From the NCBI GenBank assembly GCA_944470555.2, contig OX104129.1:48455998-48519997 (forward strand): DNA of 64,000 nucleotides, written 5' to 3'. Position 1 is the first letter of the stretch. Each line of letters starts with the position of its first letter. Origin of the DNA: Heterobilharzia americana (taxonomy: Eukaryota > Platyhelminthes > Trematoda > Strigeidida > Schistosomatidae). Of this stretch, positions 6,460 through 61,489 are shown one piece after another. A program made the translations under genes and the position numbers. The notes below the pieces were generated by a model that saw only the letters and a list, made by a program, of their open reading frames with translations, had not been told where the DNA came from and did no database searches.

Positions 6460-6718
6460 TCCATCGTTGGTTGAACTGAATTGATCGACCACTGTTGATA
6501 TATAGGCTCGTGTGCGGAGGCCTCGATATTGCCGATATTTTCTCTTTTAATACTAGTGACGGATGGTGGCTAATAATGAGGTTCAGTTTGCGCTCTTGGT
6601 CGTTTTCCGAACTCATCAGCTGATTGTACCTGCCTCCTAGCGAGCGATGTTTTTCTCACTGACACAAACGCAAGACCGATCGCTCCAAACGCCAAAGCGT
6701 TATCTACGATGGCCACTC
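6460..6718 (-). repeat. Sm-alpha-like SINE with decayed hammerhead (minus copy of a pair)
   Basis: On the minus strand it starts with a tRNA-like head near 6718, followed by a body and the motif CTGATGAG (reverse complement of 6610-6617), then a 3' module that recurs in the minus copies at 52.2, 54.2 and 57.0 kb. The GAAAC half of the ribozyme core is lost. It sits head to head with a plus-strand copy that begins at about 6720. Confidence 0.7.
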
Positions 6719-6719
6719 A

Positions 6720-6865
6720 TTGTTCCTAGGTTTGATTCTTAGTGGGAACAGCATCCGCTAGCTGAGAGGCATGTACATCTGTTTGAAGAGTCCCAAACGG
6801 AACGAAATGCGCATCCTGGGTTCCACTGCTAGCCACTAGCTCTCACTGATAACTTTACCGTATGT
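6720..6865 (+). repeat. Sm-alpha-like SINE with decayed hammerhead (plus copy of a pair)
   Basis: It begins at a B-box-like GGTTTGATTCTT, lacking the A-box half of the head. At about 6779-6835 it carries TTGAAGAGTCCC, CGAAATGCGC and ATCCTGGGTTCCACTGCT, the Sm-alpha hammerhead region. The 5' core half CTGACGAG is mutated and the stem III palindrome has changed, so it is unlikely to cleave. The matching minus copy abuts it. Confidence 0.7.
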
Positions 6866-7361
6866 TGCTTCGTACAACTTTTTTACTTCTTTAAGTTTGG
6901 AATTCATTGCTGCCTTTGCATTTAAAACTCTTGAAATAAATACTTTCTTAGACCAATGCTGTAGATATTAGCTAAGAAACCGACTTCTTATAGGTGAAAG
7001 TGCATGTTATCAGTTTATTTAGTCAACTGGGGTTGTTGGAAGACCTATATGGTTGCTCCCTAGGGGATAAGGTTGCATACTGTTCTTTTTTTACAAAGCC
7101 TGAATGAGCGTCCTGTCCTCATTAGATAATTTATGAGCATGTTACTCTGTGAAATCAAGATGTATTATTGAAAATGAACGTTATGTTCTTAGAAAACTTA
7201 GTTCTTTCTTAGACCTCATGCTTTTTTAGTGTATATATCCATACTATTTTTAAATGGAATTTGAATCTCTATCCTAGATCTGTAATTTTCACTATAAATT
7301 ATAGAATAACAAAATGTTGGTACACAGTTTCTATCCGTGTCATTAGTCATCTGAATAACCC

Positions 7362-7600
7362 CTATCCACTAAAGGTATTATTTAGAAACAAATTTGACTG
7401 ACCACCACGAAAGTTCTCCCAATCTTTCGGGTTCATGTGATCTAAACCTTCTCCTTCTACAGAGATGAAGCGAACCCGTGCTGTGATAAAGCAGTGTTCT
7501 ATGTAGTCATCTATATAAGCTCTGAGACTTTCATCAACTTTGGATGAGTCAAAGTGATTCAAAAACTGGTTGTCGTTGACGAAAGTACCATTTAGATCAT
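7362..7600 (-). CDS. Possible terminal exon of an unrecognised gene
   Basis: The minus strand is open for 79 codons from a possible AG acceptor (CCAG, complement of 7601-7604) to a TAG stop at 7362. The peptide is mixed and protein-like, rich in Asp, Glu and aromatic residues (for example EGEGLDHMNPKDWENFRGG), with none of the homopolymer look of chance frames in this AT-rich DNA. No family was recognised and no membrane segment is visible. A pyrimidine tract precedes the acceptor. It could be the last exon of a host gene whose other exons lie at higher coordinates, or a relic of a mobile element. No further exon was identified. Confidence 0.33.
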
Positions 7601-7924
7601 CTGGTTTTTGGAAAGCGAATTATTAATTTGACACAGGCAACAGGTGTTCCCAGCATGACGGTACCATAGCTTGTTAATATTTAGTGAATTACCTTATCCT
7701 GCGTATCTATTTTGGAAACTGCTATTGTCTGTACAAAAGAGTTTACTGTAAGATTTACATACTTTTCTGTGATAAACAGATGATCATTTTTGTTACAGGC
7801 TAATTTCACGCAAAGTCTTTATAAATTATTTACCCTTAACCCATTCAAGATTGAATTGTCGTTTGATTGAAAACTTTTATCTTCTTAAAGGGAGTATGCG
7901 GATTCTGCTGATAGATGCGGTTTC

Positions 7925-8445
7925 TAACCCATAGGCCAGGCGATTGGTACTAGGAAAAACAGGAAAGTCGATTGGTGAGGTTGTAAACCTTCATCGACTG
8001 AGGTGGCTTGGAAATGTACTGCGCATGCTTATCTGCTGCCTACCTCAACGTTTGATTAGGTTGGAGGAGGGTTCAAGGTAACTAGACGAAGACATAGCAC
8101 TAGTCAATGAAGTCTCTTGCTATTGGTCTGAGTCGTGTGGCGAGGTGAAGACTGCCTACTTGAGGTCATGGAAACGATAGGAATCAGTGGTTTAAGACTC
8201 TTCTTGATATGGCTGAAAATCGGTCGCAATTGTGCATATGTATTCACTACTTGACATCGTCTAAAGTCTGAATATTCGCATTAACCTTTATCTTCAGATT
8301 GTTTATTCTCTCATACTACTTTGTCTAATTTGATATCGCTCTTTTTCTATCCACTTGTTCTTTGTATACTGCAATGAAGTGTGGCAACTTGAAGTATTGC
8401 AGTTGTATGCGATGTTCAGAGTTGATTTTTTCTGTCTGTTTATCA
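7925..8445 (+). mobile_element. RTE-like LINE, 3' end fragment
   Basis: It matches the last 500 bases of the RTE-like copy at 59.75-60.25 kb. Shared parts are the block for HRLRWFGHVLRMP (CATCGACTGAGGTGGCTTGG), the block for MKSL/CLTVGLS, the conserved GGAATCAGTGG run and the pyrimidine-rich tail. The frame contains stops. Truncation on the 5' side is severe. Confidence 0.75.
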
Positions 8446-11150: not shown

Positions 11151-11489
11151 GTTTATGTCGTTGGCTCTTTAGATAAAACAACAGAGATGAATCAGCAAAC
11201 AAAAATAGCCAGTTTCTCAATTAGCAATGTCTTATGTTTTGTGGACTTCAACCTGGAAGCCTACAGTTCTGCTAATTACCCCCGTAGACAAACTTTCCGT
11301 GTAGTTATGTTTACTGTCTAGATTTCTCATTCAGCTTATGATGATACAAGTAGTTTCAGTGTACATTGATCAGTCATGTAGGTCGATTCAGACTTAAAAT
11401 AAATTTATTAGTTTATCCTCAATAACAAATATCCTGTACTCTAGTTTCAAAAGTTTTCTTGTTAGGTCGACATCAAGCAGAGACCCATT

Positions 11490-11705
11490 AAAAGCCTAGG
11501 AGCACTATACATCTAGCTGCTCGTAGTCCGAAACTTCTCAGTAGTTTAGAGCTACGGCCCTACACGGAATCGAACTCATTATCTTTAGGTCTCGTGGCAG
11601 ACACATTACCACTCAGTCACTGGGCCGGAATCAAATGACCGACGTTTTGCAACTTCTATCAATTCACTATACGGTGCAACAATCAGCGAACGCTATCGAC
11701 TAGTA
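11490..11705 (-). repeat. tRNA-headed SINE, family 2, decayed hammerhead
   Basis: The minus strand reads a tRNA-like head (B-box-like GTTCGATTCC, complement of about 11565-11575), then CTACTGAGAAGT at about 11525-11540 and TAGTGCTCCTAGG at about 11494-11510. These correspond to the 5' half of the family-2 hammerhead and to the region after its cleavage site. The GAAAC core is unrecognisable. Confidence 0.6.
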
Positions 11706-12113
11706 TTTCTCCTCATACCCGTCCTGATTGATGTCATAAATCATGACTTCTCGCTAAAACTTCATAAAATCCATCTTGAAGCAAGTCAATAGCGAACATT
11801 GGATTGTCATTCGGTTTTGATATTTTAGGGGGAATCGATTGGCTTCAAAACAGTTATCATCATAGATCGATATCTGTTACATAAGCATTTATAGCTTAGG
11901 AGTAGTAGATAGCTATTTCTTTCTAGTTTGGGATAACCTTCGGTTTAACAAGTCGCTCGGAAAGAAAATTTATCACACGTGAACGTTGTTTCGAAGAAAA
12001 TGGTAAAGTCCAGAGGCAGAAGAAGCCGTCACATCCAGTCTCTTATTTCGCAAGTTATCACAAATAAATCAATGACACCTATATTTATATGTTTTCTGAT
12101 ATCAGTTGATAAA

Positions 12114-12335
12114 GAGAGTGAGTGAGTGAGTGGGTGAGTGAGTGAGTGAGTGAGTGAGTGAGTGAGTGAGTGAGTGAGTGAGTGAGTGAGTGAGTGAGTG
12201 AGTGAGTGAGTGAGTGAGTGAGTGAGTGAGTGAGTGAGTGAGTGAGTGAGTGAGTGAGTGAGTGAGTGAGTGAGTGAGTGAGTGAGTGAGTGAGTGAGTG
12301 AGTGAGTGAGTGAGTGAGTGAGTGAGTGAGTGAGA
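12114..12335. repeat. (GAGT)n tetranucleotide array, 222 bp
   Basis: About 55 tandem GAGT units run with almost no interruption; the visible variants are a GGGT near 12131 and GAGAG ends. One strand is entirely purine plus T. Such arrays change length easily, so this would be polymorphic between individuals. Confidence 0.95.
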
Positions 12336-12869: not shown

Positions 12870-13045
12870 CTTTGTGGCTAGGTTGCACACTCTAAAACCC
12901 TTTGGCGTTTGAAGCGGTAGGTACTGGGCTATAGTCTCAGTGGGAACAACATCACTCACTGGGGCCTAGTCACATCGAGTTGACGAGACCCAAATAGGAC
13001 GAAGCGCGCGTCCTGGATTCTATTGTGACTTACAAGCCACTGGTT
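12870..13045 (+). repeat. Sm-alpha-like SINE with near-complete hammerhead
   Basis: A tRNA-like head (GTGGCTAGGTTGC; B-box relic GGGCTATAGTCTCAG) precedes the ribozyme at 12972-13022: TTGACGAG, stem II GACCC-AAATA-GGAC, then GAAGCGCGCGTC and CTGGATTC. Compared with the known schistosome motif, two core differences are visible: C3 is T in TTGACGAG and GAAAC has become GAAGC. The A-to-G change falls in the invariant GAAA, which normally abolishes activity. Confidence 0.75.
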
Positions 13046-13324: not shown

Positions 13325-13545
13325 ATTCCAAACCAGGGGTTCAATGGTAACGTGTTGGTCACGGAATCTAGAGGCCCTGGGTTCGATCCCAGGCGGGGTC
13401 ATAGGTGCATACTGCTGAAAAGTCCCATAGTAGTGGGACAGAACGGCTGTCTAGTGATCCCACGTTTCCAGTGTTCCTCCAAATGATATCAATCTATGAT
13501 GATCACCAACTTGAAAAATCACTAAATCTTCATAAACCGCAAAAT
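13325..13545 (+). repeat. tRNA-headed SINE, family 2
   Basis: The head has a clear B box, GGGTTCGATCCCAGGC, at about 13379-13394, the best tRNA-like promoter in the window. It is followed by GCATACTGCTGAAAAGTCCC, a stem II loop, GGGACAGAACGGCTGTC and TAGTGATCCC. The tail is the family block ATGATATCAATCTATGATGATCACC. The hammerhead core is mutated in both halves (CTGAAAAG and AGAAC). Confidence 0.75.
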
Positions 13546-13869
13546 TCAATTTTCTTAACTAGTAAATTTTACAATAAAGTAATTTAGGCACTCCTCAGAT
13601 GTTATTTTTATTCACGAAAAGATTTATTTCTTAACGTTCTCCTTTACAGATAATATTGTATACATCAACTGATGAAAGTAATAATGACAGGTTTTCTCGA
13701 TTGCAGTTGTTACTTACTACCGAATAAAAAAGTTCATACACCTGTATCAACGCTTGATTAGGCTTGATAAACATACAATCCCGAATCATACATTTTGAGT
13801 TTGCCTGCTACTTAATTATCCACATGATTTCTTCGACTGCTTCCTTAATAATATCCAGTTTCAAAGCAT

Positions 13870-14115
13870 TCATCTCGAAGTGAAATCATTTTGAGAACCA
13901 CTGAAAAACGGGAGTCACTCAACTAGTGTTTCATCGCAACTCGAGACTCTGAAACGCTGCGAAAGAACAACCGTATGCCAGATCTAACCAAGGGTCGTGG
14001 GGTTTTCATAGTGACACATTGCTATTCAGTCACTCAGTTTCTATTCACTGGTTCATGTTCTTAAATTCTATCAATTCTCAGTATAGCTCCAACCATCATA
14101 TCACGTTATCATCAG
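13870..14115 (-). repeat. tRNA-headed SINE, family 2, badly decayed
   Basis: The tail module GAGAACCACTGAAAA (13891-13905 on the plus strand) and the head motif near 14015-14040 (TATTCAGTCACTCAG, complement of CTGAGTGACTGAATA) place a minus-strand copy here. The ribozyme area 13905-13960 retains only scattered matches. Confidence 0.5.
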
Positions 14116-17029: not shown

Positions 17030-17112
17030 TCAAGAATTGGATATATTACTGTTGTACAATATTTGATCTTTATTACAATTGATGCATTGGTTTTCAGTAT
17101 GAAAGTTAACAG

Positions 17113-17146
<34 letters not shown>

Positions 17147-20068: not shown

Positions 20069-20629
20069 TTGATGGTACCTATTGATGGATAAAATTATTT
20101 TTTCTGATGTAACATATGTTCATTGTATGTATATAAGTTGTGTAAGTTAATTAAATACTTCGGTTTTAATACTTTTCCTGGATTTATTTACATTCTTCGG
20201 GAACAGTATACGATTGTTTTTTGCCGTTTCAAAAACTATCTGTCAACTTGATTTAACACTCATACAACTGGTTGACAAACTCACCAATCAGATTTTTTGC
20301 TTTCTTATTGGTGGTTAGCATTAGCTAGATTTTTCCTTTAACGTGACCCAGCGTAGAACTGTGTGCTAACGTTAAATGGAGATGCAGGCACATTAATTAA
20401 GTTCGTGATATAACCACTAAGCTAACTGAGGTATACTGTGATTGGCGCTGCATGTCATCACCAAATCTTTATTAAGTGCATAAACCACAGGTTTTACAGA
20501 GACTAGAGCTTAAAGATTTTCAAAAAAATAGGTTTTCTTGACAAATTTGAATAATGCAAGAACAAAGACATATGCAGAATAAAATGGGTTGTCTGCAAAT
20601 ACTCTACAACTGAATGAAGCTTTAGAAAT
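20069..20629. other. Upstream flank of the GPCR gene
   Basis: This is the 5' side of the minus-strand receptor. No upstream coding exon or clear core promoter was recognised. The part nearest the start codon is AT-rich; a GATTTTTTGC-type tract and the module TGGTTAGCATTAGCTAG occur without a known role. Confidence 0.4.
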
Positions 20630-23905: not shown

Positions 23906-25000
23906 GAATATAGAGATCTCGTAGCACCCTTTACTCATCTAAACTTGCTACGGATGCTCGTTTGTTTTCAAGTGTTTGTTTTTTTCCTTCAGTCTTTGCT
24001 TTATTGAATTATGAATGTTTTCTATCGTTGTTGTTTTCGCTGTGGATGATATTAGTTACGAGAGGGATAATGCTTGTAACATTTTGTTTTATTCTATCAT
24101 TATTTATCTTTATTTTTCATGTCAACAGTATGATGAAGTAATCAGTGAATTGTGTCTATCGCTGGTTACTGTCTACAAATATGAAATTGTTTGCTCTAAT
24201 CGAAAAAGAAATTTTGGAAAACATTATTAACAAGATACTAAGAGTGATTAAAGTGACCAAACGTCTTTCATGCAGACATTTCATGAGCGAAATAAGACGC
24301 CAGCTGATGACTATAGATGAAGGTAGCGCTAAATGATGAATTGAAGTTGAAAAAGGTGAATTATTAGACTTCAACAACGTACTTACTGCAGCATCTGATG
24401 GTATTCCATTGTCTTGTGTTTGGAGGTAAGGTTAAGCCGGAAAATAAACAGAATAGCCACCCAGTAGTACTTGATTTTCATTACTTCTTTAGCGTGTCTC
24501 CAACTGATTACTAATTTAAACGCGTAAACCAGTCTATTAAGAAAATGTGCACGCCTTATTTTGACTGGTAGATATAACTGTTCTAAGACATTGAACATTA
24601 CAGACTCGAGTCGTATATGAAATATAGATTTCCAGGATATTGTTGGTGTAGTCCATCTGCATCAACAAGCATATTGTCCATAAACTTCTTAGTGCTTTCA
24701 GTCACTGAGGTAGCTTTTTGTTGCTTCATTTAAAAGGCTACTAAATGCTGGATCTTTTAGCGGGCCACAATGGGTGAATATAGAAATATTCAAAACCGGA
24801 GGCAGACATCACTATTGATATATGTGATTCTGGAATCTCCGCACTACTTATGTACTGTTTAGTGATGTTCACTTTCGAATTCTGTTTTATCTGCTATTTG
24901 GTTCGCTTCACTTAAGTAATGATAGATAACCTTGAAAATCATGAAGCAAACCCCTACTTAAATAAATAAAAGCATAAAAGTAGTATTCATCACAGACTAA
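23904..25000. other. Stretch without a supported gene
   Basis: A good splice-acceptor look-alike (TTTATTTTTCATGTCAACAG ending at about 24129) precedes two overlapping short frames, one rich in Ile, Lys and Glu (24145-24336). No family was recognised and no matching donor was clear, so no exon is called. Confidence 0.3.
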
Positions 25001-25004
25001 CAGT

Positions 25005-25120
25005 TGAAGAACCATGGAAAACCCCGGGGACATTGGGGAGAGCTTCTCAGCAGTGCGCACCCACGACCCTGCCAAGAGTTAAGCCCAGGAACGTCACGAT
25101 TTATAAACATTATTGGTCAA
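25005..25120 (-). repeat. tRNA-headed SINE, family 2, fragment
   Basis: The minus strand carries the tail block GGTTTTCCATGGTTCTTCAACTG, and at 25050-25075 GCACTGCTGAGAAGCTCTCC. The middle of the hammerhead, including GAAAC and the stem III palindrome, is deleted. Confidence 0.55.
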
Positions 25121-25564
25121 CTGACTGAAACCATTAAAAACGCTACACAAAATGAAAAATATTTGAGGTGATCTTACCAATAACGTACTGTTTACTTAGT
25201 AGTATCTCTAGGTCATCGGGTACCCATTAAATATAGTTCTGTGATTAACAGATACATTTTTGTTCTTGGTTGGAATTCTGTCTAACATTTTGCCAGCTTT
25301 TGTTCAACTGTTTATTCTCCACTCAAATATTTTTGACAGATGACAAAATGTCAGCTTAATTTCCTGTAGAAATTACCTGGTCAATATCACGCCACTATAA
25401 TTTTCCTTAGAAGCTAATAATTACTGAAGTTATGATCTTTGCAATCATCTCCAGAATCCAGAATTCCGTATCAAAAGAAACCCCTATCTTTTGGTATAGG
25501 CGTAGTGAAACCCCATATGAATGAAAAGTATACTACATTCCCCTACCTGGTTCTCACCGTTAGA

Positions 25565-25798
25565 TGTTGTCAGATTATTATCAGCTTGACTGTCTAAGAT
25601 AGCCTTAGTTTGGCAGACTTGTATTGATACTAGGTGATGTTTGAAGTTGAAATGAAAATGTGGGCTGCCACAAGACTCGAACCAGCTACCTCCGGATTGC
25701 TAGCCCTGGTGTTTTCTATCAGTTGAGCTACGAGATCCGTCTACTGACCAGCTTTTTATTTCACTTCAGTCACCATGGGCTTCGCCTGGCTGCTACGT
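25565..25798 (-). repeat. tRNA-headed repeat, family with the TTCGCCTGGCTGCT module
   Basis: On the minus strand, GTAGCTCAACTGATAGA (A-box-like) and GCTGGTTCGAGTCTTGTGG (B-box-like) sit at about 25665-25732. This is a good tRNA-like head of a SINE, but not a tRNA gene, since no cloverleaf was found. A CATCAG..GACTGTCTNAGATAGCC module at about 25577 recurs at 25908, in inverse at 25998 and at 28655. Confidence 0.6.
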
Positions 25799-26124
25799 GA
25801 ATTCGTGATGCGTTAGTATCACTTGATCGCTCTCACACTGGCTACTCAACCAGGACTTCTCATCGCAATCCAAACTACTTGAACTAGAAAGGAGTAGCTC
25901 ACATTGATCATCAGTTCGACTGTCTCAGATAGCCGTGGTTTGGTAAACTTTAATTATCACGCAGTATCAATACAAGTTTGCTAGACCACTGTTATATAAG
26001 ATAGTCGAACTGATGATCAATATGAGCTCCCTCTCTCTAATTCAAGTAGTTTGGATTGCCATGAGAAGTCCTGACTGGGAGGCCTTTGCAAGTACGATCA
26101 AGAGATAGTAACATATCACGAATT
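25799..26124. repeat. Large near-perfect palindrome
   Basis: The left arm 25799-25951 is the reverse complement of 25972-26124, with a 20-base spacer. Easily checked anchors are GAATTCGTGAT against ATCACGAATTC, AGGACTTCTCAT against ATGAGAAGTCCT, and CATTGATCATCAGTTCGACT against its complement. The left arm is the end of the tRNA-headed repeat just upstream, so the palindrome is two copies of that repeat in inverse order. Confidence 0.8.
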
Positions 26125-27160
26125 CATATGGCAGTTGAGTAAAACTCCTGGTGATTGAAGTGAAGTGGAAACCTGGTCAGTGGAAACCTTTATCCCCAAA
26201 CTATTGGTGTTTGAAAAGTCACCTGAAAACAGGAAGTTTGAATAATTATGATTTAAATCAATCCTGGGTAAAATGTAAGCCACTGAATACAAATTTACTG
26301 GTTCAACCATCCTTTTAGTATTTTATTGAGTTGCTACGATGTACTGGTTTGTGTTCATTCATTAGGTCACGGACTAGAATTCCACTCTACTTACCGAAGT
26401 GTAGGTAGTTCAGTAGCATACTAGCACTCAATCAATACTCTAGGTACATTACCCTGAAAATGGAACGTATATTTGGCTATCGAGTTCCATTACAAACACT
26501 ATGTTTTTTAGTGTTTGTATAATATATCAACTTGTGTTAAAATTTCGTGGTTATTTGTCCTTTAAAGCCATGATCATGAACCGAACATACACACGGAAAA
26601 GCCAATAATCTTCAAAACTTATCGCATGACATACTAGTTTGTTACGTCGTTTCACATTTGTAAAATTAAGTTGTTCTACGATGAAATATGATCCATTTTT
26701 AATTTGTTCTCGTTTTACGTAATCAACACCAAGTTGCTCCAAAAGTTTTCCATAGGTGTAATGTCAATATAGATGTCAATTTCAATTTTTCGCTTTTTAA
26801 CTTTCGACTGCTCTCTATTTATCATTCTCTAGGCTAATAGTTAGTGACGAAGAAGTACGTAGCAAAAGAAGGCGAAAAATAACAGCATCATATGCACTTT
26901 ATTCAGAAATGATAGGGTGATTTTCCTTTCCGCCTAAGTATGTTTCTCTTTCCTCTCCCATCCTCCTCCCTCTACTAATCCTAACTTAATTATAGAGAAA
27001 GTAATCAAATTGAATCGCTATCAACAACAAGTTATTGGTTTAGATACGTTAATGAAACTACTCACATTGATTGCTCACTGAAGAGCAACCAACTTCATGT
27101 TTGAATTCTATCGATTACTCTGCAATATGACCCTCAGGCTACGATACTCACCATCGCGGT
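26125..27160. other. Gene-free stretch
   Basis: Short minus-strand frames at 26116-26310 and 26551-26742 show no family motif. No repeats were assigned. Confidence 0.35.
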
Positions 27161-27879: not shown

Positions 27880-28090
27880 AAGGACCACTAGAAATTTGAG
27901 AGCACTAAACGGCTGTTTCATCGTAGTTTGGAACTTCTCAACTGCAGGCGTCTAAAAATCCACAAAAGGCTGAGTCTAGGACTATCAGATCTCGCCGCAA
28001 GGATATTCCCATTCGACTACTTACATGGAATCCAGTGTTTCTGGTTTCCCTATCTAGTACCCAGAGCTTCTACATGTCCTGCCAACTAAT
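27880..28090 (-). repeat. tRNA-headed SINE, family 2
   Basis: The minus strand reads AGTTGAGAAGTTCC, a stem II relic, GATGAAACAGCCGTTTAGTGC (complement of 27903-27955). GAAAC is intact here and the stem III palindrome ACAGCTGT has become ACAGCCGT. The 5' core is TTGAGAAG, with C3 and G8 changed. The head near 27985-28020 is decayed. Confidence 0.6.
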
Positions 28091-29394: not shown

Positions 29395-29665
29395 AAATAC
29401 TCAACGACGGCGTTGGATGAAAGTCGCCCTACATCGCGAGTTGACAGAAGTAGCAAAGTGTGGACCATTGAATTCCGACCCGGTGGGTCAGTGACAACTT
29501 GCTCGCCTCGAAACCTTGAAGGCTCAGGGTTCAAATACCAGTCTGATGACAGGTATACACTGCTGAGGAGCCGCATACTAGGATGGACCAGCTTTCCAGT
29601 GATCCCAGGTCTTTAGTGGTTTTCCAATTAATGTCAACTCGTAATGAATATCACCTTGAAAAAGG
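29395..29665 (+). repeat. tRNA-headed SINE, family 2, long copy
   Basis: The 5' module GACAGAAGTAGCAAAGTGTGGACCATTGAATTCCGACC is shared with the copy at 37.8 kb. A B-box-like GGGTTCAAATACC lies at about 29527. The hammerhead 5' half, CACTGCTGAGGAG, is intact at about 29557-29569; the 3' half has become GGATGGACCAGC. The tail TTCCAATTAATGTCAACTCGTAATGAA matches other copies. Confidence 0.75.
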
Positions 29666-30384: not shown

Positions 30385-30640
30385 GTTGAAGGATCACTGA
30401 AAACCTGGGGGCACTGGACAACTGTTTTACCCTAGTATGGGACTCCTCAACTATGCGAACCTATGACTCCTTCAGGAGTCGAGCCTAGGATCTCCAAGTT
30501 TCACGGCTAGCATGTTGCTATTGAGCCACTGAGTCGGAATCCAGTGGTTCATATTTTCCTACTTCTGTCATTTCGCTATATAGCGTGAGCATCCAATTCC
30601 GTCACTAGATATTTGTGCCCACCTGCAACTTGGAGATGAT
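30385..30640 (-). repeat. tRNA-headed SINE, family 2
   Basis: The minus strand has head blocks GACTCAGTGGCTCAATAGC and CTAGGCTCGACTCCTG (A and B boxes), then GCATAGTTGAGGAGTCCC, stem II loop ATACTA, GGGTAAAACAGTTGTCCAGTGC and the tail. C3 is T and the G12 position is changed (GTAAAAC for CGAAAC); otherwise the ribozyme frame is easy to see at about 30415-30465. Confidence 0.75.
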
Positions 30641-32965: not shown

Positions 32966-33037
32966 GTGGCCTTTGTTATCATTCCTGATAACGTCTCTAT
33001 AAACACATAAATGTTCAAAGGTGGTTTGCATCACAAA

Positions 33038-33300
33038 CTAAAAACAGGTGAAGAACCACTGAAAATGGGGCACGCAAAAAACATGTTCCTTTCTAGTGTA
33101 GGATTTCCTAACAATGCATACTTTCTGTATCTAGGACATTCGCATATTGTATTGATCTCTGAGTCAGAATCTAATGCTTGGTACTTCTTACTTCAGTTTA
33201 TTCCCAGTGTAGGCTGATCCCCATCATGCAGCCTCATCGACAAGTTTCTGTCCACACATTTGACTTGACTAACATGTCACTAGAACTTTGAATAATCCAT
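33038..33300 (-). repeat. tRNA-headed SINE, family 2, badly decayed
   Basis: The plus strand starts with the complement of the family tail (GAAGAACCACTGAAAAT) and runs through CATTTCTAGTGT-like matter to CTCTGAGTCAGAATCTAATG, the complement of a head like that at 30.5 kb. No ribozyme core remains. Confidence 0.45.
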
Positions 33301-34504: not shown

Positions 34505-34590
34505 TAATTAGCTTCACTTAGCATACATTTCGAAGCGAAAACAGCCGTTTCATCCTAGTATGGGACTTTTCACAGCAGTTCACTGGTACA
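34505..34590 (-). repeat. tRNA-headed SINE, family 2, ribozyme fragment
   Basis: The minus strand reads ACTGCTGTGAAAAGTCCC, ATACT, AGGATGAAACGGCTGTTTTC (complement of about 34525-34580). GAAAC and a near-complete stem III are present, while the 5' core half is disturbed by an extra base. The head is missing. Confidence 0.6.
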
Positions 34591-34889: not shown

Positions 34890-35110
34890 AAGGTTTGACC
34901 AGAGAAAATACTCAGACTCATTGGCTGGACAATTAACACGTTCGCCGCTAGACCTAAAGTTCCTGTGTTCCACCCTCAGCAGTTCGTGGTTGTGTATCTT
35001 TGAGGAGTCTCATATGAGAAACAAGCAGCTGTCCGTTGCTCCCAAGTTCTCACTGGTTCTCCAACTGATGTCAGTCCATGATAAGCACTACCTTGGAATA
35101 TTGAAAAAGT
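34890..35110 (+). repeat. tRNA-headed SINE, family 2
   Basis: The B-box relic CTGTGTTCCACC lies at about 34962. The hammerhead region at 35000-35040 reads TTTGAGGAGTCTC, then GAAACAAGCAGCTGTCCG, so the palindrome CAGCTG and the GTC triplet survive but the spacing of GAAAC is altered. The tail CTCCAACTGATGTCAGTCC is typical. Confidence 0.7.
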
Positions 35111-37714: not shown

Positions 37715-38015
37715 AAACCGTAACCTGTGAAGTCAACTAGTCGAAAGTGAAGCGGGCGGCAACTGAAGACTTTGTGGACAGTCTCACTATATCGAAAATT
37801 GACAGAAGTAGAAAACTGTGGACCATTCAGCTCCAATCTAGTCCCTGAATAATTAACGCGAAACCTGAAGGTCCTGAGTTCTACCACTGGTGGGATCTTG
37901 GGTGCTTACTGCTGAGATTCCCATACTAGGACGAATCAGCTATCAAGAGCTCCCAGGTTTTCAATGGTTCTCGAAGTGATGTCGATTCGTGATGAACGGT
38001 GCTCTGGGTTGGAAC
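37715..38015 (+). repeat. tRNA-headed SINE, family 2, longest copy
   Basis: It includes the 5' leader shared with 29.4 and 61.2 kb (GACAGAAGTAGAAAACTGTGGACC), the head, TTACTGCTGAGATTCCC, ATACT, AGGACGAATCAGCTATCAAGAG and the tail to GATGTCGATTCGTGATGAAC. In the ribozyme, the 5' half is CTGAGATT and GAAAC is GAATC, so the core is broken twice. Stem II is perfect. Confidence 0.75.
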
Positions 38016-41634: not shown

Positions 41635-41705
41635 AGAAAAGCACGGGGCACTGGGTAACTGTTTCGTCTCAGTTCAGGGACTCGTCAGTAGCGAGAACTT
41701 TTATC
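41635..41705 (-). repeat. Family-2 SINE fragment with intact hammerhead core blocks
   Basis: The minus strand reads CTACTGACGAGTCCC, TGAACT, GAGACGAAACAGTTACCC and AGTGCC (complement of 41651-41697). Both CTGACGAG and CGAAAC are intact, the only copy here with both. The cleavage-site triplet has become ACC instead of GTC and stem I is weak. No head is present. Confidence 0.65.
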
Positions 41706-49260: not shown

Positions 49261-49265
49261 TTGAA

Positions 49266-49404: not shown

Positions 49405-49600
49405 ATTCGTTGCACAAGAGACGGCTGTCGCGCCCCAGTGGCCTAGTGGATAGATTTCTGGCGATGGTTACTGGGTTCGAGTCTCAGTAGGAACAACATC
49501 AGTCACTGAAGTGCAGGTACGCCCAGCGGACGAGTCCCAAGTAGGACGAAACGCCTATCCTGGGTTCCCCTGCTAGTCACCAAGATGAATATAATGTTTT
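49405..49600 (+). repeat. Sm-alpha-like SINE, best-preserved hammerhead in the window
   Basis: Leader GCACAAGAGACGGCTGTCGCG, A-box-like TGGCCTAGTGGATAG (49439-49453), B box GGGTTCGAGTCTC (49473-49485), then the ribozyme at 49522-49566: CCCAGCGGACGAGTCCC, AAGTA, GGACGAAACGCC, TATC, CTGGG. Stem I (CCCAG/CTGGG) and stem II are fully paired, GAAAC is intact and TATC keeps U before the cleavage C. The one core change is U4 to G in CTGACGAG. Confidence 0.85.
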
Positions 49601-52189: not shown

Positions 52190-52481
52190 TTCCTTGTTGA
52201 TTGGACTGAAATGATCGGTCTCTGTTAGGATATGGGTTTCTATGCAGATGCCTCGATGTATTGCTTGTGTTTCAATTTTAAATTATTGATGGCTAGCATC
52301 TAGCAGTGGAATCCGGGACTCGCCTTTTATCCTATTTGGGACTCGTCAGCTGAACGTACTTGCCTCCCGTTTGACAATGTTGCTTCCACTGGGACTCGAA
52401 CCTGGGACCGATCGTTTCAAACCGTAGAGCCTTATTAACTAGGTCACCAAGTCGCGACAGCCGCTTCTTGTGCGACATGCA
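52190..52481 (-). repeat. Sm-alpha-like SINE, full length (minus copy of a pair)
   Basis: The minus strand has leader GCACAAGAAGCGGCTGTCGCG, A-box region GGTGACCTAGTTAATAAGG, B box CAGGTTCGAGTCCC (complement of about 52390-52403), and the ribozyme CAGCTGACGAGTCCC, AAATA, GGATAAAAGGCGAGTC, CCGG at about 52315-52353. CTGACGAG is intact; CGAAAC has become TAAAAG by two C/G-to-T/A changes. The 3' module continues to about 52190. Confidence 0.8.
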
Positions 52482-52493
52482 TAGTTTTTGTTT

Positions 52494-52545
52494 TTGCGCG
52501 TCCTGGATTCCACTCCTAACCACTATCCATCATTAACATGTTTTC
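52494..52545 (+). repeat. Sm-alpha-like SINE, 3' half, inverted against the preceding copy
   Basis: TTGCGCGTCCTGGATTCCACTCCTAACCACTATCCATCATTAA is the family sequence from the stem III palindrome onward. It begins 13 bases beyond the 5' end of the minus-strand copy. Confidence 0.7.
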
Positions 52546-52643
52546 TTTTTACTTCAACGTTTAAATCACTCATCATTAGAGAAGTGCAAGTACACTGACT
52601 GGATTTAGTTCACACATGTTTGTCTAATATTTGCAATCTACTT

Positions 52644-54174: not shown

Positions 54175-54445
54175 TTTCTTTGTTGACTGGAGAGAATAGA
54201 TCGGCCACTATTGGCATATAGGCTGCTGCATGTATCCCTCGATATTGACAGTATCTTCGTTTTTGATATTAATGATGGATAATGGCTGGCAGTTGAATCT
54301 AGGGCGTTCGTTTCATCCTGCTTGAGACTCATCAGTCGAATCTATCTGCCTCCTAGTGAGTAATATTGTCCCCAGTGAGACTCGAGCCCAGGACCGGTCG
54401 CTTGAAGGACCACAGTGTTATCGACTGAGCTACGATATCCACTTA
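54175..54445 (-). repeat. Sm-alpha-like SINE, full length (minus copy of a pair)
   Basis: The minus strand has GTAGCTCAGTCGATAACAC (A-box-like), GGGCTCGAGTCTCACTGG (B-box), then GACTGATGAGTCTC, AAGC, AGGATGAAACGAACGCC at about 54300-54342. CTGATGA and GAAAC are both intact and stem II closes with a G-T wobble; the cleavage triplet GTC has become GCC. The 3' module (CAATATCGAGG) runs on to 54175. Confidence 0.8.
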
Positions 54446-54530
54446 CTAGGAGGCGGAAACATCCAACTGACGAGTTCCAAGTAAGACGAAGCCCGTGTCC
54501 ACTATCTACCAAGAACAGTATGTTTGTCTA
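54446..54530 (+). repeat. Sm-alpha-like SINE, middle piece (plus copy of a pair)
   Basis: It starts in mid-element at AGGAGGCGGAAACATCC and reads AACTGACGAGTTCC, AAGTAAGAC, GAAGCCCGTGTCC. CTGACGAG is intact; GAAAC is GAAGC. It directly abuts the tRNA-like head of the minus copy. Confidence 0.75.
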
Positions 54531-55615
54531 TGGAATCCGAATTCAACATGCTCATCAGCAACTGACTACTTTGATGATATGAAGCTAGAAACAAATTGAA
54601 TCTCCAAAAAGTAGATATTTTAATGAAATATTGTTACATATGTATATCATTATGTGTTGGTATCTTTCGAATGTACTAAAACGTGATTATGGCTTGATGC
54701 TGTGGTCAAGTCCTACTGATGTATTTTCTACAAATGATACTGGAATGTCACTCTCTCCGTTTACCGCCAGTTATCAGTTTAAGAGAAAGTTGACTTCTTC
54801 TTACTGCCTATTTTTCTTTTTCGCTTTCTTCGCCAACATCATCATCAACAACGACGACGATGATGACATATTCGTGCATAATCACGGTGTGGGTGTATGT
54901 GAACAGTCGAAATTCTCAATTTCAAAATGCTTCAGTTCTCCTAACTGGTATTGCAGATTTGTTTCGTAATTTCAAATACTGTTGGTAAGTTGTTATTACT
55001 GATAGTATGGTTATTCTTGTTGATTTTATTTTCAGGTTGATCAACTAAAAGACTAGGTGGAAAAGGTCCTTGCGACAAATATAAAGGTTGTTTTTAAAAA
55101 AGAACAAATGAGAATGTTGAATTTAGTTGTGATGAAAAGGCAAGAAGTAAAATCCTTTTGGGTACAGTAAATCTATATCTTCCATCAGACTAAACGTGTG
55201 ACTCATTGATGAGCACATGTCTTGTCAATTACTCAATCGGACTACAGTAGTCTATATGATTTTTTAACCTGTGGCATGATGCAACTTATTCCATCTTACT
55301 CACTTAACTCTGAAGAATCACAGCATTTAATCAGCGCTGCACGTACACATTCTCTATGAAGTGGTTATCAATGGCCATTCTAGTATTCAAATCAACGATA
55401 GCCATGACGCCAGTTATCTGTGTCAGTATTGCACTGCAAGAATATTTCTCCTCCCCAAGAAAATTATTATTCAGACTACATGAGGTGACCGTTGTCTGGC
55501 AGATTGGTGTTACTTTAACTGCACGATGATTACAGATCTGGAAGTGCAGCTAATGTAGCTACTTCAATTTGGAGGTTTATGGGGATTTATTGGTTTCTAG
55601 TTAGTATTCATCATG
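54531..55615. other. Stretch without a supported gene
   Basis: The frame 54631-54969 ends in a hydrophobic segment and an Asp run from a (GAT)n-like tract (54852-54868); no family was recognised. Confidence 0.35.
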
Positions 55616-55624: not shown

Positions 55625-55790
55625 TATTTGCAGAACAGCTGGAAACCTGAGAACACTGAATAACTATTTTGCTCCAGTATGGGACTGCTCAGAATGCGCA
55701 CCCATGACCTTATCAGGGATTGAACGCAAGACCTTCAAATTTCTCAGTGAGCACGTTACCACTGGATTACAATGGCGTAGATGAACAACT
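55625..55790 (-). repeat. tRNA-headed SINE, family 2
   Basis: The plus strand shows the complement of the tail (CAGCTGGAAACCTGAGAACACTG), of the ribozyme (AATAACTATTTTGCTCCAGTATGGGACTGCTCAG) and of the head (GGATTGAACGCAAG). On the minus strand, CTGAGCAGTCCC and GCAAAATAG replace the consensus core. Confidence 0.65.
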
Positions 55791-55960: not shown

Positions 55961-55979
55961 GTGTGTGTGTGTGTGTGTG
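55953..55979. repeat. (GT)n microsatellite
   Basis: Twelve or thirteen GT units, directly after a LINE tail. Confidence 0.9.
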
Positions 55980-56950: not shown

Positions 56951-56954
56951 GTGA

Positions 56955-57215
56955 ATATTTGTCGCTGGTTGGATATGGGCCCCTATGTGGATGCCTCAAT
57001 ATTGCCAGTATTTTTAAATTTGATACCAGTAATACATAGTGGCTAGCATTGGGATCCAGGGTACGCGTTCAGTCCTATTTGGAACTCGTCAGCTGGATGT
57101 GCTTACCTCCATTGAGTGATTTTGTTCCCACTAAGACTCAAACCCAGAACCTATCACTTCAAATGCTAAAGCGTTAGGTCACTGAAGCACGATAGCCACC
57201 TCTTATGCAACGGGT
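56955..57215 (-). repeat. Sm-alpha-like SINE, full length (minus copy of a pair)
   Basis: The minus strand has leader TTGCATAAGAGGTGGCTATCG, head GTGACCTAACGC, B-box relic GGTTTGAGTCTTAGTGGG, and the ribozyme CATCCAGCTGACGAGTTCC, AAATA, GGACTGAACGCGTACC, CTGGAT at about 57052-57103. Stem I is fully paired and CTGACGAG is intact; CGAAAC has become CTGAAC and the cleavage triplet GTC is altered. Confidence 0.8.
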
Positions 57216-57284
57216 ATTAGTTGATGCGTATTGATACATGTAGTTTTCCTTTGCTATACAGGGTCGAATTCCTCGATCTCTTTT

Positions 57285-57445
57285 AGCCTAGTGGATAAAG
57301 CTTTGGCGTTTGATGCAATGGGTGCTGAGTTCAAGTCTCACTGGGCACAACACTCACTGGGGTACAGGTTTATCTAGCCGACGAGTCCTAAATAGGATAA
57401 AATGTGCGTCTTGAGTTTCATTCGTGGTCAAAAAGATGAGTGTAA
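57285..57445 (+). repeat. Sm-alpha-like SINE (plus copy of a pair)
   Basis: A-box-like TAGCCTAGTGGATAAAG at 57287, B-box relic GAGTTCAAGTCTCACTGGG, ribozyme relic TAGCCGACGAGTCC, TAAATA, GGATAAAATGTGCGTC, TTGAG at 57373-57413. Core changes are in C3-U4 and in GAAAC. Confidence 0.75.
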
Positions 57446-57766
57446 CATCACTGATTCTGTTTATTGCAGAACAAAGCAACTGTCAACAGTCTACATATTT
57501 TACGAATGTCCTGGAAAAAGTCTAACGCCGAGTCCTACTTAATCACTATAAGAATGTACATATCTTAGCGCAATATATTACATTAAAATATACATTTGAA
57601 TCCACATGCTGGTCTCATTTATATGTCCTCATATAGTATTTGTCTAACCTTTCCACCTTCGGAATCCCGGCTGAACGTACAGATAACGGTGATCGCCTAC
57701 TACAACTGTGCTCAGATAACCGCCTATTTTTAGCTAGCTAGACATACAGAAAGACACTGTCTGAAG

Positions 57767-58879
57767 TTGCATCCACCGAGCTCAACTCAGCGATGGACAC
57801 AGATAGACTACATTCCTATTACTCATCGCTGGAGAGGACCGGTGGAAAACTACCGCTCTTTCTGGAGTACGTGTTTGGACAGCAACCACGAGTTGGTCCA
57901 AACACGTATATCCCTGCTTCTCAATGGACGTAAGAAAAATTTGACAACAAAACCACTACGAGTGCTGCTGGACAATGAAAACACCAAAGCTGTGTTCAGT
58001 GAGAAGTTGGCTAGGCAGCTATCGGAACAGAACATTATCACTCATCCAGAAGAAACTTGGTGTCATCTCCAATCTGCTGCAAAAGCAACGTTGAAGACCG
58101 TAGCCGACTCCGAAATAGTGGCTAAAAATAGCCAGTGGATATCAGCAGTTTCTTTCGAACTAATGGATACACGTAAACGCATCCCTGCAGGCTCTGAGTA
58201 CAATGAAGAGCGAGTGCAGCTTAAAAGTAGATTGAGAAAAAATCTACGCAACGACCTCGAACAGTGGTGGGCAGTGAAGGCTAAAGAGATGGAAAAGGCG
58301 GCGGCGATTGGTAACAATAGACAGTTATTTAGACTTATTAAGGAAACTGAAGGGAAAAAGTCAACAACAGTTAGGGAGGCTATAGAGGAGAAGGACGGAT
58401 CTGCGATTCACTCGCAGGGGAGGCGACTAGAACGATGGAGAGAACACTTCGAGGAACAGTTTAACTGGCCTCCAGCCACCAATGCGTTGTCTGCTATGCA
58501 GTCGGATCCTGAATGGAACATTGAGATAGGCCCCCAAACACTAGGAGAAGTCGAGAAAGCTGTAGGTAACCTGAAACGAGGAAGGGCGGCAGGACCAGAC
58601 GGACTACCTGCTGAGGTATACAAGGATGGTGGTAGAGTGCTCTTAGTCAGGTTGACGGAAGTGTTAACCAGCATACGGGAATCAAAGCCGATCCCCTCTG
58701 ACTGGTGTAAATCATTGACTATCCCAGTCTTCAAGAAAGACGAGATGTCCTCTTGTGATAACCACAGAGGAATCAGCCTGACGAGCATAGTGTCCAAGAT
58801 CCCAGGTTCTATAATATTTCGACGCCTGATTGGAGCTCGGGAACAGCAAGCCTGCGAAAAGCAGGCAGGCAGGCTTTAG
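57767..58879 (+). pseudogene. RTE-like endonuclease end, linker and RT N-terminal part
   Basis: An open frame of 370 codons from a TTG; the true start of the protein lay far upstream, so this start is arbitrary. Residues 11-23 (TQIDYIPITHRWR) and SNHELV at 39-44 are the end of the apurinic-type endonuclease; the family has SDH here and Asp has become Asn. Then follow a basic, Glu-rich linker and the RT finger motif RGRAAGPDGLPAEVYKDG near residues 274-291, then WCKSLTIPVFKKDE and HRGISLTS. The frame shifts within GCAGGCAGGCAGGC at about 58861-58874 and stops at once, where the family continues with GFRPGRGC. Confidence 0.9.
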
Positions 58880-58944
58880 ACCTGGCCGTGGGTGTATAAA
58901 CCAAATATTGACAATGTGCCACGTCCTGGAACATAGGCCTGATA

Positions 58945-59982
58945 ATAGCTGTATTTCTTGACCTGAAGGCGGCATTCGACTCCATGGATCGAGGAGTCTT
59001 ATGGAAATGTTCCTCACTGAAAGGTGTGTCAAGTAAGTACATCACCTTATTGAAGGCTCTCTACTCGAGCACCTGTAGGCGTGTTAGAGCCTATGTTGAG
59101 ATGTCCAGGGAGCTGTGCTCATCGGGTGGTGTCCGTCAAGGGTGCCCACTATCTCCATTCTTATTTAATTTTATCATAGATATACTTATGGAGGTTTTCA
59201 TCTCGTCACCCAATTACACAGACGTTGACCCAATCACAGGTGAATTTTCTTTAGATCTAGAATATGCAGATGACATAGTCCTGTCAGGTGAAGATGCTGA
59301 CAAGACTAAGAGTCTTCTGAACACTTTGAGTGGGAATTTGAGAATGTTTGGGATGAGATTTTCACCACCCAAATGCAAATTTTTGCTCCAGGACTGGTCT
59401 TCAGCGGTACCGCGGCTAACAATAGAGAGTGAAGTGGTTGAGTGTGTTGACCACTTCACTTGCCTGGGAAGTAGGATCAACCCTGTTGGGTTAGTTGCCG
59501 ATGAGATTTCTGCACGGATACAAAAGGTTCGATTGGCTTTTGCCAATTCACGCCATCTATGGCGCCACCGTGATATCCGTTTGTCTATTAAGGGTCGCGT
59601 GTACTGCACAGCAGTCCGGTCTGTTCTACTGTATGGCTGTGAAACATGGCCATTTAAAGTGGAAGATATGAGAAGGCTTCAAGTGTTTGACCTCCGTTGC
59701 CTTTGTAGTATAGGACGTATTCCGTGGTGTCACCACATGAGTAATGCAGAAGTCAGGTGTAGAGTTTTAGGGAGTAGAGGTAAATCAGTTGACGAGGTTA
59801 TGAATCTTCATCGACTGAGATGGTTTGGACACGTATTACGTATGCCTAGTTGCCGATTGCCTCGTCACATAATGTTGACCGAAGTATTCCTAGGCTGGAA
59901 AAAGGCCCAAGATGGCCAGACTAAAACATGGCATCAATGTATGAAGTGTTTGACTGTTGGTTTGAGTCATGTGGGGTGATGC
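58945..59982 (+). pseudogene. RTE-like RT catalytic core and C-terminal region
   Basis: Frame restored after the second shift: VFLDLKAAFDSMDR (RT motif A with catalytic Asp), RQGCPLSPFLFNFIID (59134-59181), EYADDIVLSG (YADD, 59263-59274, catalytic Asp pair), CLGSRI, then CETWPFKVEDMRRLQVFDLRCL and HRLRWFGHVLRMPS, the C-terminal region typical of the RTE group. The catalytic residues seen are intact, so the inactivating lesions lie upstream. It ends with VGLSHVG before TGA. Confidence 0.9.
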
Positions 59983-60359
59983 TGACTAGTCGGTTGGGTT
60001 CGGCTGGATAGGAGGAACCAGTGGTTGTAGACTCTAGGTGATATGGCTCAGAACCGATGTCAGTGACGCAGTTGTATACATGCATTGTCCTCATCTTAAC
60101 GAGGTAATACCGAATTTCACCATTTTTCCTCATTCTTCGTTTCTCTCTTTTCGTGCTTTAAATTTCTTTTGACTGAATTTTCTTATCTACATCTTGCAGT
60201 TCACTGCCTTTTTACTTGATGTACTGATATGAGGTGTGGCAACTCGGAGGGTTACGCAGTAATGCCTGGTCCTATGTTGATATTGATGGTGATGATCTAA
60301 CTTTTCACTTTGACTTTATCTATTTTGCTTATTACTGAACTTTAACAGTATTAATAACT

Positions 60360-60645
60360 CATGTTTGCCGTCTGACAACCGAAATCGGCGATTGGTGACT
60401 CAAAACAGATCCCAGTGGCTCAGATGAGTCAGTACATTATCTTCATCCGAACAGTCATATTCCATTTTAGTATTTGTTTACCTCCTCTTTCTATCTTCGA
60501 ATGATTTTCTACAACTTTCATTTGCATTCTTCTTCTCTATTCCTCAGTCTTTCGTCCTACTGCTCTATGTCTCTCGATGTATTGATTTGAGTCGTAGGAA
60601 ACTGAACCGTTTCGTAGTAATTCCAGATCTCACATTTGATATTCA
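60360..60645 (+). mobile_element. RTE-like LINE, 3' tail fragment
   Basis: ACAGATCCCAGTGGCTCAGATGAGTCAGTACATTATCTTCATC to GAGTCGTAGGAAACTGAACC is a second, diverged tail in the same orientation as the long copy just upstream. Confidence 0.6.
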
Positions 60646-60856
60646 TAGACTGCTTGAGACTAGCCGACTAAGAGGTTCCTTGCTGTCTAGCCAGAGTGAT
60701 CCCAATACATACACTTGTTCATTACCGTCCAATCACATTTTACAGTGGTTCATACTAATTTATAGCCGGTAATAAGTTGAACAGAAAGCAATAATAACTG
60801 CTTTGGAAATTCTTAAGAATATAGTACAGGGTCTTTTATGTTCTTATTTTGCCTAG

Positions 60857-60977
60857 GCTTACTCGTAATGGAATGATATGTGAACAGAAGTGGATATTTC
60901 ACGTGAATTGTTTAGACTGTTTAGATCGTACAAATTTGGTTCAATGCATGTTTGCCGTTGTCATGATTACAACTCAG
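60857..60977 (+). CDS. INPP5F: SAC-domain phosphoinositide phosphatase, INPP5F/SAC2-like, catalytic exon
   Basis: An exon of 121 nt between a TTATTTTGCCTAG acceptor and a CAG|GTGAGT donor: one base of a split codon, then 40 complete codons ending in phase 0. The peptide holds MICEQKWIFHVNCLDCLDRT followed by NLVQ, the SAC catalytic loop CX5RT (Cys-Leu-Asp-Cys-Leu-Asp-Arg-Thr), in which the first Cys is the nucleophile and Arg binds phosphate. FxVNC before the loop and the VVM..TQ helix after it favour the INPP5F/SAC2 branch over SAC1. All catalytic residues are intact. No following exon was found before 64000, so the gene continues to the right. An upstream AG at about 60830 is an alternative acceptor. 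Confidence 0.85.
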
Positions 60978-61202
60978 GTGAGTAATTTCTATGATTATTG
61001 TTATCCTACTTCGGCTGTTTCGAATATTATTCACAAGGGATGTTGTTTGAGCACATAAAACGTTAGATTTTATGTCTGTTAGTAAGAATTTATTGACTGT
61101 TTACGAGGATTTAATTACACATGATAAACTCCTGGTCGTCTGTAGATTGGATAATAATTATTTATCTTACTCGGGATGGATATCCCAAAGTCCTAATGAG
61201 AA

Positions 61203-61487
61203 GCAGTGACCTGTGGAGTCCACCAAGTCGGAAGTGAAGCGTATGCCGGCTTGTGATCTGGGGTGGTGACAAAAGCAGGGAACTGCAAACCACCGAACTT
61301 CAACCTATTACCGAACAGTTGACGCGATCACTTCTAAACCTGTAGGTCTGCAGTTCAACCCCTGATGGGGCGGGGTCGTGGATGTATACTGCTGAGTAGT
61401 CTCATACTAGGACAAAACAGATATTTAGTGTTTGAAGGTTTTCAGCGGTTCTCCAACTGGTGTCACTCCGTGATGAAAACTTCCGTG

Positions 61488-61489
<2 letters not shown>
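61203..61489 (+). repeat. tRNA-headed SINE, family 2, ending in (AT)n
   Basis: The leader (GTGGAGTCCACCAAGTCGGAAGTGAAGCG) is shared with 37.7 kb. The B-box region is GCAGTTCAACCCC. The ribozyme, 61391-61435, reads ATACTGCTGAGTAGTCTC, ATACT, AGGACAAAACAGATATTTAGTG: CTGAGGAG is CTGAGTAG, CGAAAC is CAAAAC and the palindrome is lost. The tail CTCCAACTGGTGTCACTCCGTGATGAAAA stops at an (AT)n run. Confidence 0.75.

Follow-up and report, generated by a model that had tools for sequence, protein, structure and literature searches.

Decayed hammerhead-bearing short interspersed elements of two families in a Heterobilharzia americana locus and the proposed pairing of their palindromic stem III

We examined a window of 64,000 bases, free of N, from contig OX104129.1 of the schistosomatid fluke Heterobilharzia americana, in which copies of two interspersed families of short interspersed nuclear elements (SINEs) with hammerhead ribozymes are scattered over both strands from about 6.48 to 61.5 kb. 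One family is of the Sm-alpha type and is represented by 10 ribozyme cores, one degenerate copy and two truncated tails, and the other, here called family 2, is represented by 12 cores and three partial copies. The units are best read as insertions of two distinct schistosomatid fluke SINEs that are old and no longer active; the window contains no functional ribozyme, nor does it add a new class. A preliminary description of the interval 6460..61489 had spoken of several such families with about ten Sm-alpha and about fourteen family-2 units; two interspersed families were confirmed, no more than two were found, and the counts are adjusted as given here. The wider question is why SINE ribozymes persist at all, and whether their tiny stem III serves work between two molecules.

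In a scan of the whole window, the Rfam Hammerhead_1 model (RF00163, gathering score 34 bits) matched the 10 Sm-alpha cores, five over the gathering score and five under it, and comparison with the model consensus at up to 15 mismatches picks out the same 10 places. None of the 12 family-2 cores reached the gathering score, and a single one was listed (22.6 bits, E 0.67). When searched alone, this copy at 30411(-) (171 bases) gave 22.6 bits with E 0.0018 and the copy at 13415(+) (181 bases) gave 16.5 bits with E 0.2, both still under the gathering score. The family-2 cores were located with a 40-nt core consensus drawn by eye from the window copies, with up to 16 mismatches allowed, which found 12 places in the window and 1, 0, 0, 0 and 0 places in five first-order Markov shuffles. 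Profile searches with nhmmer extended both sets: the Sm-alpha profile added the degenerate copy at 6475-6731(-) and the truncated tails at 49263(+) and 52496(+), and the family-2 profile, which was built from its own 12 places and is circular for those members, added the three partial copies. A family-2 fragment at 28051(+) was not used as its match was too weak (E 0.006). The copies are as follows.

6475..6731, minus strand: Sm-alpha copy with degenerate hammerhead, nhmmer E 3.9e-31; head to head with 6777
6777..6821, plus strand: Sm-alpha core, RF00163 40.9 bits; stem III ATGCGCAT; core broken
12974..13018, plus strand: Sm-alpha core, RF00163 44.1 bits
35355..35399, plus strand: Sm-alpha core, RF00163 43.7 bits
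40765..40809, minus strand: Sm-alpha core, RF00163 33.6 bits, just under the gathering score
49263..49354, plus strand: 5'-truncated Sm-alpha tail, nhmmer E 3.6e-7; starts at the palindrome (ACGCGCGT at 49265), with a full copy directly downstream
49521..49565, plus strand: Sm-alpha core, RF00163 33.8 bits; B-box-like stretch upstream at 49474-49484
52311..52355, minus strand: Sm-alpha core, RF00163 40.9 bits
52496..52539, plus strand: 5'-truncated Sm-alpha tail, nhmmer E 1.3e-5; starts within the palindrome; head to head with 52311(-)
54297..54341, minus strand: Sm-alpha core, RF00163 24.1 bits; head to head with 54461
54461..54505, plus strand: Sm-alpha core, RF00163 26.1 bits
57054..57098, minus strand: Sm-alpha core, RF00163 42.8 bits; head to head with 57372
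57372..57416, plus strand: Sm-alpha core, RF00163 31.1 bits
11502..11541, minus strand: family-2 core, 40-nt query and profile; element about 11399-11673
11902..11941, minus strand: family-2 core, 40-nt query and profile; stem III ATAGCTAT
13415..13456, plus strand: family-2 core, 40-nt query and profile; stem III ACGGCTGT; B box at 13380
13837..14083, minus strand: degenerate family-2 copy, nhmmer E 4e-15
24953..25132, minus strand: partial family-2 copy with the ribozyme mostly deleted, nhmmer E 3e-13
27902..27941, minus strand: family-2 core, 40-nt query and profile
29563..29602, plus strand: family-2 core, 40-nt query and profile
30411..30456, minus strand: family-2 core, RF00163 22.6 bits, the sole family-2 copy in the whole-window Rfam list; B box at 30475
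32971..33142, minus strand: 5'-truncated family-2 copy, nhmmer E 1.7e-9
34534..34573, minus strand: family-2 core, 40-nt query and profile; stem III ACGGCTGT
35000..35039, plus strand: family-2 core, 40-nt query and profile; stem III GCAGCTGT
37911..37950, plus strand: family-2 core, 40-nt query and profile
41648..41688, minus strand: family-2 core, 40-nt query; CTGACGA and GAAA retained, U16.1 lost
55653..55692, minus strand: family-2 core, 40-nt query and profile; stem III ATAGTTAT
61392..61431, plus strand: family-2 core, 40-nt query and profile

Identity to the consensus ranges from 0.68 to 0.86 among 11 Sm-alpha copies (consensus made by hand) and from 0.60 to 0.81 among the 15 family-2 copies. 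The family-2 unit is about 230-260 bases long and consists of a B-box-like head, the ribozyme core and a tail whose likeness fades near TTGAAA. By plurality, the catalytic core is intact in Sm-alpha, and the core positions hold in family 2 with the exception of G8. The palindromic 8-mer runs from A15.1, the last A of GAAA, to U16.1, and its consensus context is GAA/ACGCGCGT/C in Sm-alpha and GAA/ACAGCTGT/C in family 2. ACAGCTGT is the plurality stem III of family 2, while that of Sm-alpha is either ACGCGCGT or ACGCGTGT, position 16.3 being C in five copies, T in five and A in one, and ACGCGCGT is only weakly the local Sm-alpha consensus. Both consensuses have the self-complementary stem III and loop III expected of dimer-acting minimal hammerheads. 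The exact 8-mer is present in none of the 15 family-2 and none of the 11 Sm-alpha copies; ACGCGCGT is found once in the window, at 49265 inside the truncated Sm-alpha tail, and ACAGCTGT once, at 30703, outside every family-2 core. The shared design of CTGANGA, GAAA and palindrome that the preliminary description attributed to both families thus holds for the consensus, G8 of family 2 excepted, but for no single copy (0 of 15 and 0 of 11). Its placement of the 8-mer after GAAAC was out of register, and the literal palindromes that it gave, GAAACACAGCTGT and GAAACACGCGCGT, do not occur in the window.

In order to find relatives of family 2, protein sequences were searched with translated consensus sequences. 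The translated family-2 consensus of the window itself found no candidate relative in this protein search. A consensus assumed for the Schistosoma counterpart of family 2 was translated likewise and gave 18 protein matches, including S. haematobium (1), S. bovis (2) and S. margrebowiei (1), and we read these proteins as probable SINE sequence swept into predicted proteins. Since translated relatives are present in three Schistosoma species, family 2 is shared with that genus and is not new, and it is probably among the hammerhead SINEs already in print. Codon readings cover 16 of the 18 matches, as P0044 and P0045 do not span pair 15.3-16.3. The core positions that can be read in these relatives are mostly kept: Phe (A14, A15.1) in 16, the second Leu (A6) in 15, the first Leu (A9) in 14 and the first Ser (C3 and U4, if the codon is AGY) in 13, with position 17 read as Gly (C17) in 12 and Glu (U17) in four; G8 falls on a silent codon position there. 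Exact family-2 core strings had no match in viral contigs or in prokaryote genome contigs, and six short core strings did not occur in the paper texts searched.

Pair 15.3-16.3 of stem III is reported by second codon positions, which read Arg-Pro (G-C) in 12 of the 16 matches, Arg-Leu in two, Gln-Pro in one and Arg-Ser in one. The family-2 copies of the window are mostly in the Gln-Leu state, with A at 15.3 in 12 of 15 and T at 16.3 in 13 of 15. From KPGSTG to SSAHP, over 21 codons, the frames of the window consensus and of the consensus assumed for Schistosoma differ only at the 15.3 and 16.3 codons. A change at one position matched by a change at its partner is what extended pairing would leave, and this matched A-U/G-C change between fluke lineages lends modest support to the view that such pairing was kept.

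We consider it probable that the units are decayed Sm-alpha and family-2 SINEs whose type I hammerheads were able to act singly or as dimers, with the extended pairing kept in the family-2 source elements. The source elements would probably have been transcribed by RNA polymerase III, and the SINE RNA would then be cut at the GUC of the hammerhead. Alone, a molecule would have a minimal stem III of two pairs and a loop of 4 nt, whereas the self-complementarity of the 8-mer would let two molecules form eight pairs. Folding singly and folding as a double hammerhead, in which form they may have acted as dimers, would thus both have been open to the source ribozymes, and the 15.3-16.3 difference suggests that the extended pairing was maintained in the family-2 source elements. 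When we searched the window with the B-box motif GGTTCGANTCC, allowed at most one mismatch, eight B-box-like sites were found, of which five lie in element heads (13380, 49474, 30475, 52392 and 11566) and one, at 13042, in an Sm-alpha tail, those at 25673 and 45781 being left unassigned. The Rfam transfer RNA (tRNA) model was matched neither by the whole window nor by single copies.

Energies were modelled with RNA parameters, in which concentration and tertiary contacts are ignored. The hammerhead with the two-pair stem III had -10.0 kcal/mol as a monomer in family 2 and -8.4 kcal/mol in Sm-alpha, and the double hammerhead, nested and joined by eight pairs between the molecules, had -35.9 and -34.9 kcal/mol, respectively, so that in the model the dimer is far more stable than two monomers (-35.9 versus 2 x -10.0 and -34.9 versus 2 x -8.4). 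With one A-C mismatch pair type the value was -26.5 kcal/mol, and with the broken Sm-alpha loop it was -20.6 kcal/mol. The weak pairing within one molecule and full pairing between two that had been proposed earlier agree with these eight pairs and with the more stable dimer, although the palindromic stem III design and the dimer idea are already known from print.

We then compared the decay of stem III with neutral decay, simulated from the consensus in 20,000 runs with copy-specific divergence and the observed substitution spectrum; 13 of the 15 family-2 copies (two are gapped there) and all 11 Sm-alpha copies were usable. All four pairs were possible in 6 of 13 family-2 copies (2.9 expected, P 0.049) and in 5 of 11 Sm-alpha copies (3.0 expected, P 0.15), and pairable cells numbered 39 of 52 (35.7 expected, P 0.19) and 33 of 44 (31.5 expected, P 0.37), respectively. 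The P value of 0.049 was dropped as a sign of pairing selection, being one such value among six tests. The decay of the palindrome within the window is about neutral, with no clear selection, as expected for dead insertions.

Several observations weigh against our interpretation. First, an intact core (CTGANGA, GAAA, U16.1 and H17) is present in none of the 15 family-2 and none of the 11 Sm-alpha copies, and position 8 of family 2 is A in seven copies, G in six, T in one and C in one. As A exceeds G, the strict plurality consensus of family 2 is itself broken there, so that the loss of an intact core from the family-2 consensus, which the preliminary description had named as a refutation of its proposal, is seen in part inside this window, at G8. 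G to A is the most frequent change from G in the copies (0.206), and since 7 of 15 lies above that rate, an A8 subfamily, which could mark an inactive lineage, is possible, as is decay. Second, double changes in stem III were no more frequent in the copies than in the simulation, with two against 2.2 expected in family 2 (P 0.66) and one against 1.2 expected in Sm-alpha (P 0.71). Third, the compensating difference at 15.3-16.3 is a single event, read through translations and found post hoc; the query already carried the Arg-Pro state, which biases the count of 12 of 16 toward that state; and most of the protein matches depart from the window consensus at two codons of loop II as well, single matches differing at further codons. 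Fourth, the unconstrained lowest-energy fold of the monomer is not a hammerhead in either family (-21.3 kcal/mol in family 2 and -18.4 in Sm-alpha), and neither the window nor four hand-made heads gave a tRNA with ARAGORN. Finally, a very high cleavage rate is given for Sm-alpha hammerheads in PMC6155905, so the palindrome seems to be dispensable for cleavage there.

It is also quite conceivable, if somewhat short of an even chance, that the 8-mer is merely a two-pair stem III with a tetraloop, its inner four bases being free and palindromic by descent or chance, and that both ribozymes worked only in cis. The window copies, with neither an excess of double changes nor a clear excess of kept pairs, fit this explanation, as do the statement in a review that for most type I hammerheads of invertebrates a single motif is enough for efficient cleavage (PMC7761336) and the report that three of five W25.2/W36.2 candidates cleaved during in vitro transcription (PMC8490949). 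What it leaves less well explained is that both families are palindromic by consensus despite different inner bases, and that the stem III difference between lineages preserves complementarity. The proposal that the palindrome was selected for pairing is thus left with one modest comparative support, the compensating difference seen in relatives, and with none from the window itself, where no clear selection was detected among the copies. Public schistosome genomes alone would allow the question to be tested, given that two element families of one lineage share the palindromic design and that one matched pair of changes separates fluke lineages.

A role of the palindrome in DNA or on the other strand, such as a binding site, rather than in RNA pairing, appears quite improbable. 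A compensating change within a perfect palindrome would not on its own separate RNA-RNA pairing from DNA symmetry, but in each ribozyme the 8-mer occupies precisely the stem III position, and the two families differ in its sequence and not in its symmetry.

The separateness of the two families was examined by profile comparison. The family-2 profile gave only three weak matches on Sm-alpha copies (E 1.7e-4, 9.5e-4 and 0.006), and the Sm-alpha profile gave one on family-2 copies (E 0.008). Because these matches are few, weak and confined to the head and ribozyme, with tails that did not align in these searches, the comparison supports family 2 as a lineage separate from Sm-alpha; a match over head, ribozyme and tail to the window's own Sm-alpha copies was not found. 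It is very unlikely that family 2 is instead a divergent Sm-alpha subfamily, to which these cross matches, the B-box-like heads of both families and their identical consensus stem II (GTCC/GGAC) might point. This stem II is frequent among natural hammerheads and hence is no proof of close kinship, and the distance from the start of the B box to CTGA differs: the family-2 B box at 13380 starts 35 bases ahead of CTGA, the Sm-alpha one at 49474 starts 53 bases ahead. The preliminary description was therefore right to treat family 2 as a distinct lineage of the same design, although the lineage is shared with Schistosoma rather than new. Highly unlikely, too, is that family 2 is a piece of a Penelope-like element or retrozyme and not a SINE: minimal type I hammerheads are described in both element kinds and an S. 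mansoni repeat is drawn among putative metazoan retrozyme RNAs in PMC4918200, but the window copies are monomers, about 230-260 bp long, that carry the ribozyme after a B-box-like head; terminal repeats were not seen in them, and they are dispersed and not arranged in the short tandem repeats typical of retrozymes, the sole abutting tandem being the Sm-alpha tail at 49263 followed by a full copy.

The Sm-alpha copies also form head-to-head pairs, 6475(-)/6777(+), 52311(-)/52496(+), 54297(-)/54461(+) and 57054(-)/57372(+), which span 6475-6932, 52204-52558, 54190-54606 and 56951-57527. With heads at most 80 bases apart, these four pairs compare with 0.1 expected from random placement of the 13 units (11 copies and two tails), and four pairs were reached in none of 20,000 runs; the head coordinates are manual entries, and the pairs had already been seen when the 80-base limit was set. 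Family 2 has one such pair among 16, with a doubtful partner, against 0.15 expected. By eye, the minus-strand copy of each Sm-alpha pair has the longer tail form, and the junction points vary from pair to pair. An outer target-site duplication was sought only around the four pairs: a candidate at 6418/6846, which agrees in 14 of 16 bases (P 0.015, uncorrected for the four tests made), possibly overlaps the tail of the plus copy, and none was found at the other three. The pairs could be explained by preferential insertion beside existing heads or by joint insertion of two RNAs. It is improbable that SINE RNAs dimerise in the fluke cell through the palindromic stem III and that the machinery of long interspersed nuclear elements reverse-transcribes both from the two nicks of one target, with their 5' ends joined. 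Head-to-head inverted pairs like those of Sm-alpha would result from such joint retroposition, and the palindrome would then serve both as a ribozyme stem and as an element by which RNAs dimerise for retroposition, maintained through compensating changes like the A-U for G-C at 15.3-16.3. The two 5'-truncated Sm-alpha tails start at the palindrome, 11 bases (49263) and 7 bases (52496) upstream of the ribozyme cut, and a start exactly at the cut was rejected for them; a reverse transcriptase halting before stem II is one possible cause.

Other features lie among the SINEs. A frame at 17033-20119(-) encodes an amine receptor of the octopamine/serotonin type with a very long middle stretch rich in S, N and T; its residues 20-300 share 73-77% identity with the four best of 27 matches, which include S. 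japonicum and S. mansoni, and the identity to Fasciola, Echinostoma and Paragonimus proteins is 61-63%. By these values the window belongs to a blood fluke close to those Schistosoma species but probably not among them. Two adjoining standard-code frames at 57734-59976(+) resemble, from motifs seen by eye, a reverse transcriptase of the kind without long terminal repeats. A further interspersed repeat, 64 bases long or more, has six copies (15359, 31360, 34128, 36122, 50545 and 50770), an inverted repeat at 25740-26184 has 216-base arms that are 77% complementary and 13 bases apart, and a tandem GAGT repeat of about 55 units (12116-12334) lies just past the head of the element spanning 11802-12060, a family-2 copy.

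Sm-alpha was reportedly described by Ferbeyre in 1998 as a SINE-like hammerhead element of Schistosoma mansoni, and Sj-alpha of S. japonicum is said, by the title of a report of Laha from 2000, to be a SINE-like element with a hammerhead. The window copies resemble Sm-alpha of S. mansoni in their type I hammerhead, ten cores matching RF00163, a likeness that goes by the ribozyme model, and differ from it in being decayed. Sj-alpha, compared by description only, shares with the window families the SINE-like nature and the hammerhead. The Sm-alpha head of S. mansoni is related to tRNA-Gln-TTG, tRNA-Gln-TTG-like genes being Sm-alpha-like SINEs, the two genomes hold about 38,500 and 5,000 candidate Sm-alpha and Sj-alpha hammerheads, and tRNA-Pro-CGG is the source of about 650 of the 951 tRNA pseudogenes of S. 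japonicum (PMC2770079). In S. haematobium, 16 hammerhead-like small-RNA clusters are given, seven wholly in SINE/tRNA and two in long interspersed repeats (PMC5993326). Passages of PMC3653858, PMC3409120 and PMC4465651 gave nothing further on family 2, and no statement that a palindromic stem III of schistosome SINEs is kept by compensating change was found in the mostly non-subscription literature searched.

Three further known systems come close to the window families. First, 'SmAlpha and Sm elements' of S. mansoni both bear hammerheads (PMC4350168), and the 'Sm element', a second small noncoding hammerhead SINE beside Sm-alpha, may be family 2, the comparison being by description only. Second, W25.2, W26.2 and W27.2 of S. 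mansoni, likewise compared by description, are alike in their type I hammerheads with extremely short stem III and differ as satellite-like elements; W-element hammerheads have weak similarity to Sm-alpha and some were shown to cleave, and variants of W25.2 and W36.2 include active hammerheads, two non-cleavers having core or cut-site changes (PMC8490949). Finally, weak helix III, dimers and metazoan retrozymes as SINE-like elements are treated in PMC7761336, palindromic stem III and hammerhead dimers are described in the Fig. S8 legend of PMC3088659, and dimer action with a palindromic tetraloop is described for the axolotl hammerhead in PMC7229834. These amphibian and Penelope-associated minimal hammerheads share with the window families a very short stem III and a palindromic loop through which two copies pair (PMC7229834, PMC3088659), but they lie in a tandem satellite or Penelope context, whereas the units described here are dispersed and headed by a B-box-like sequence.

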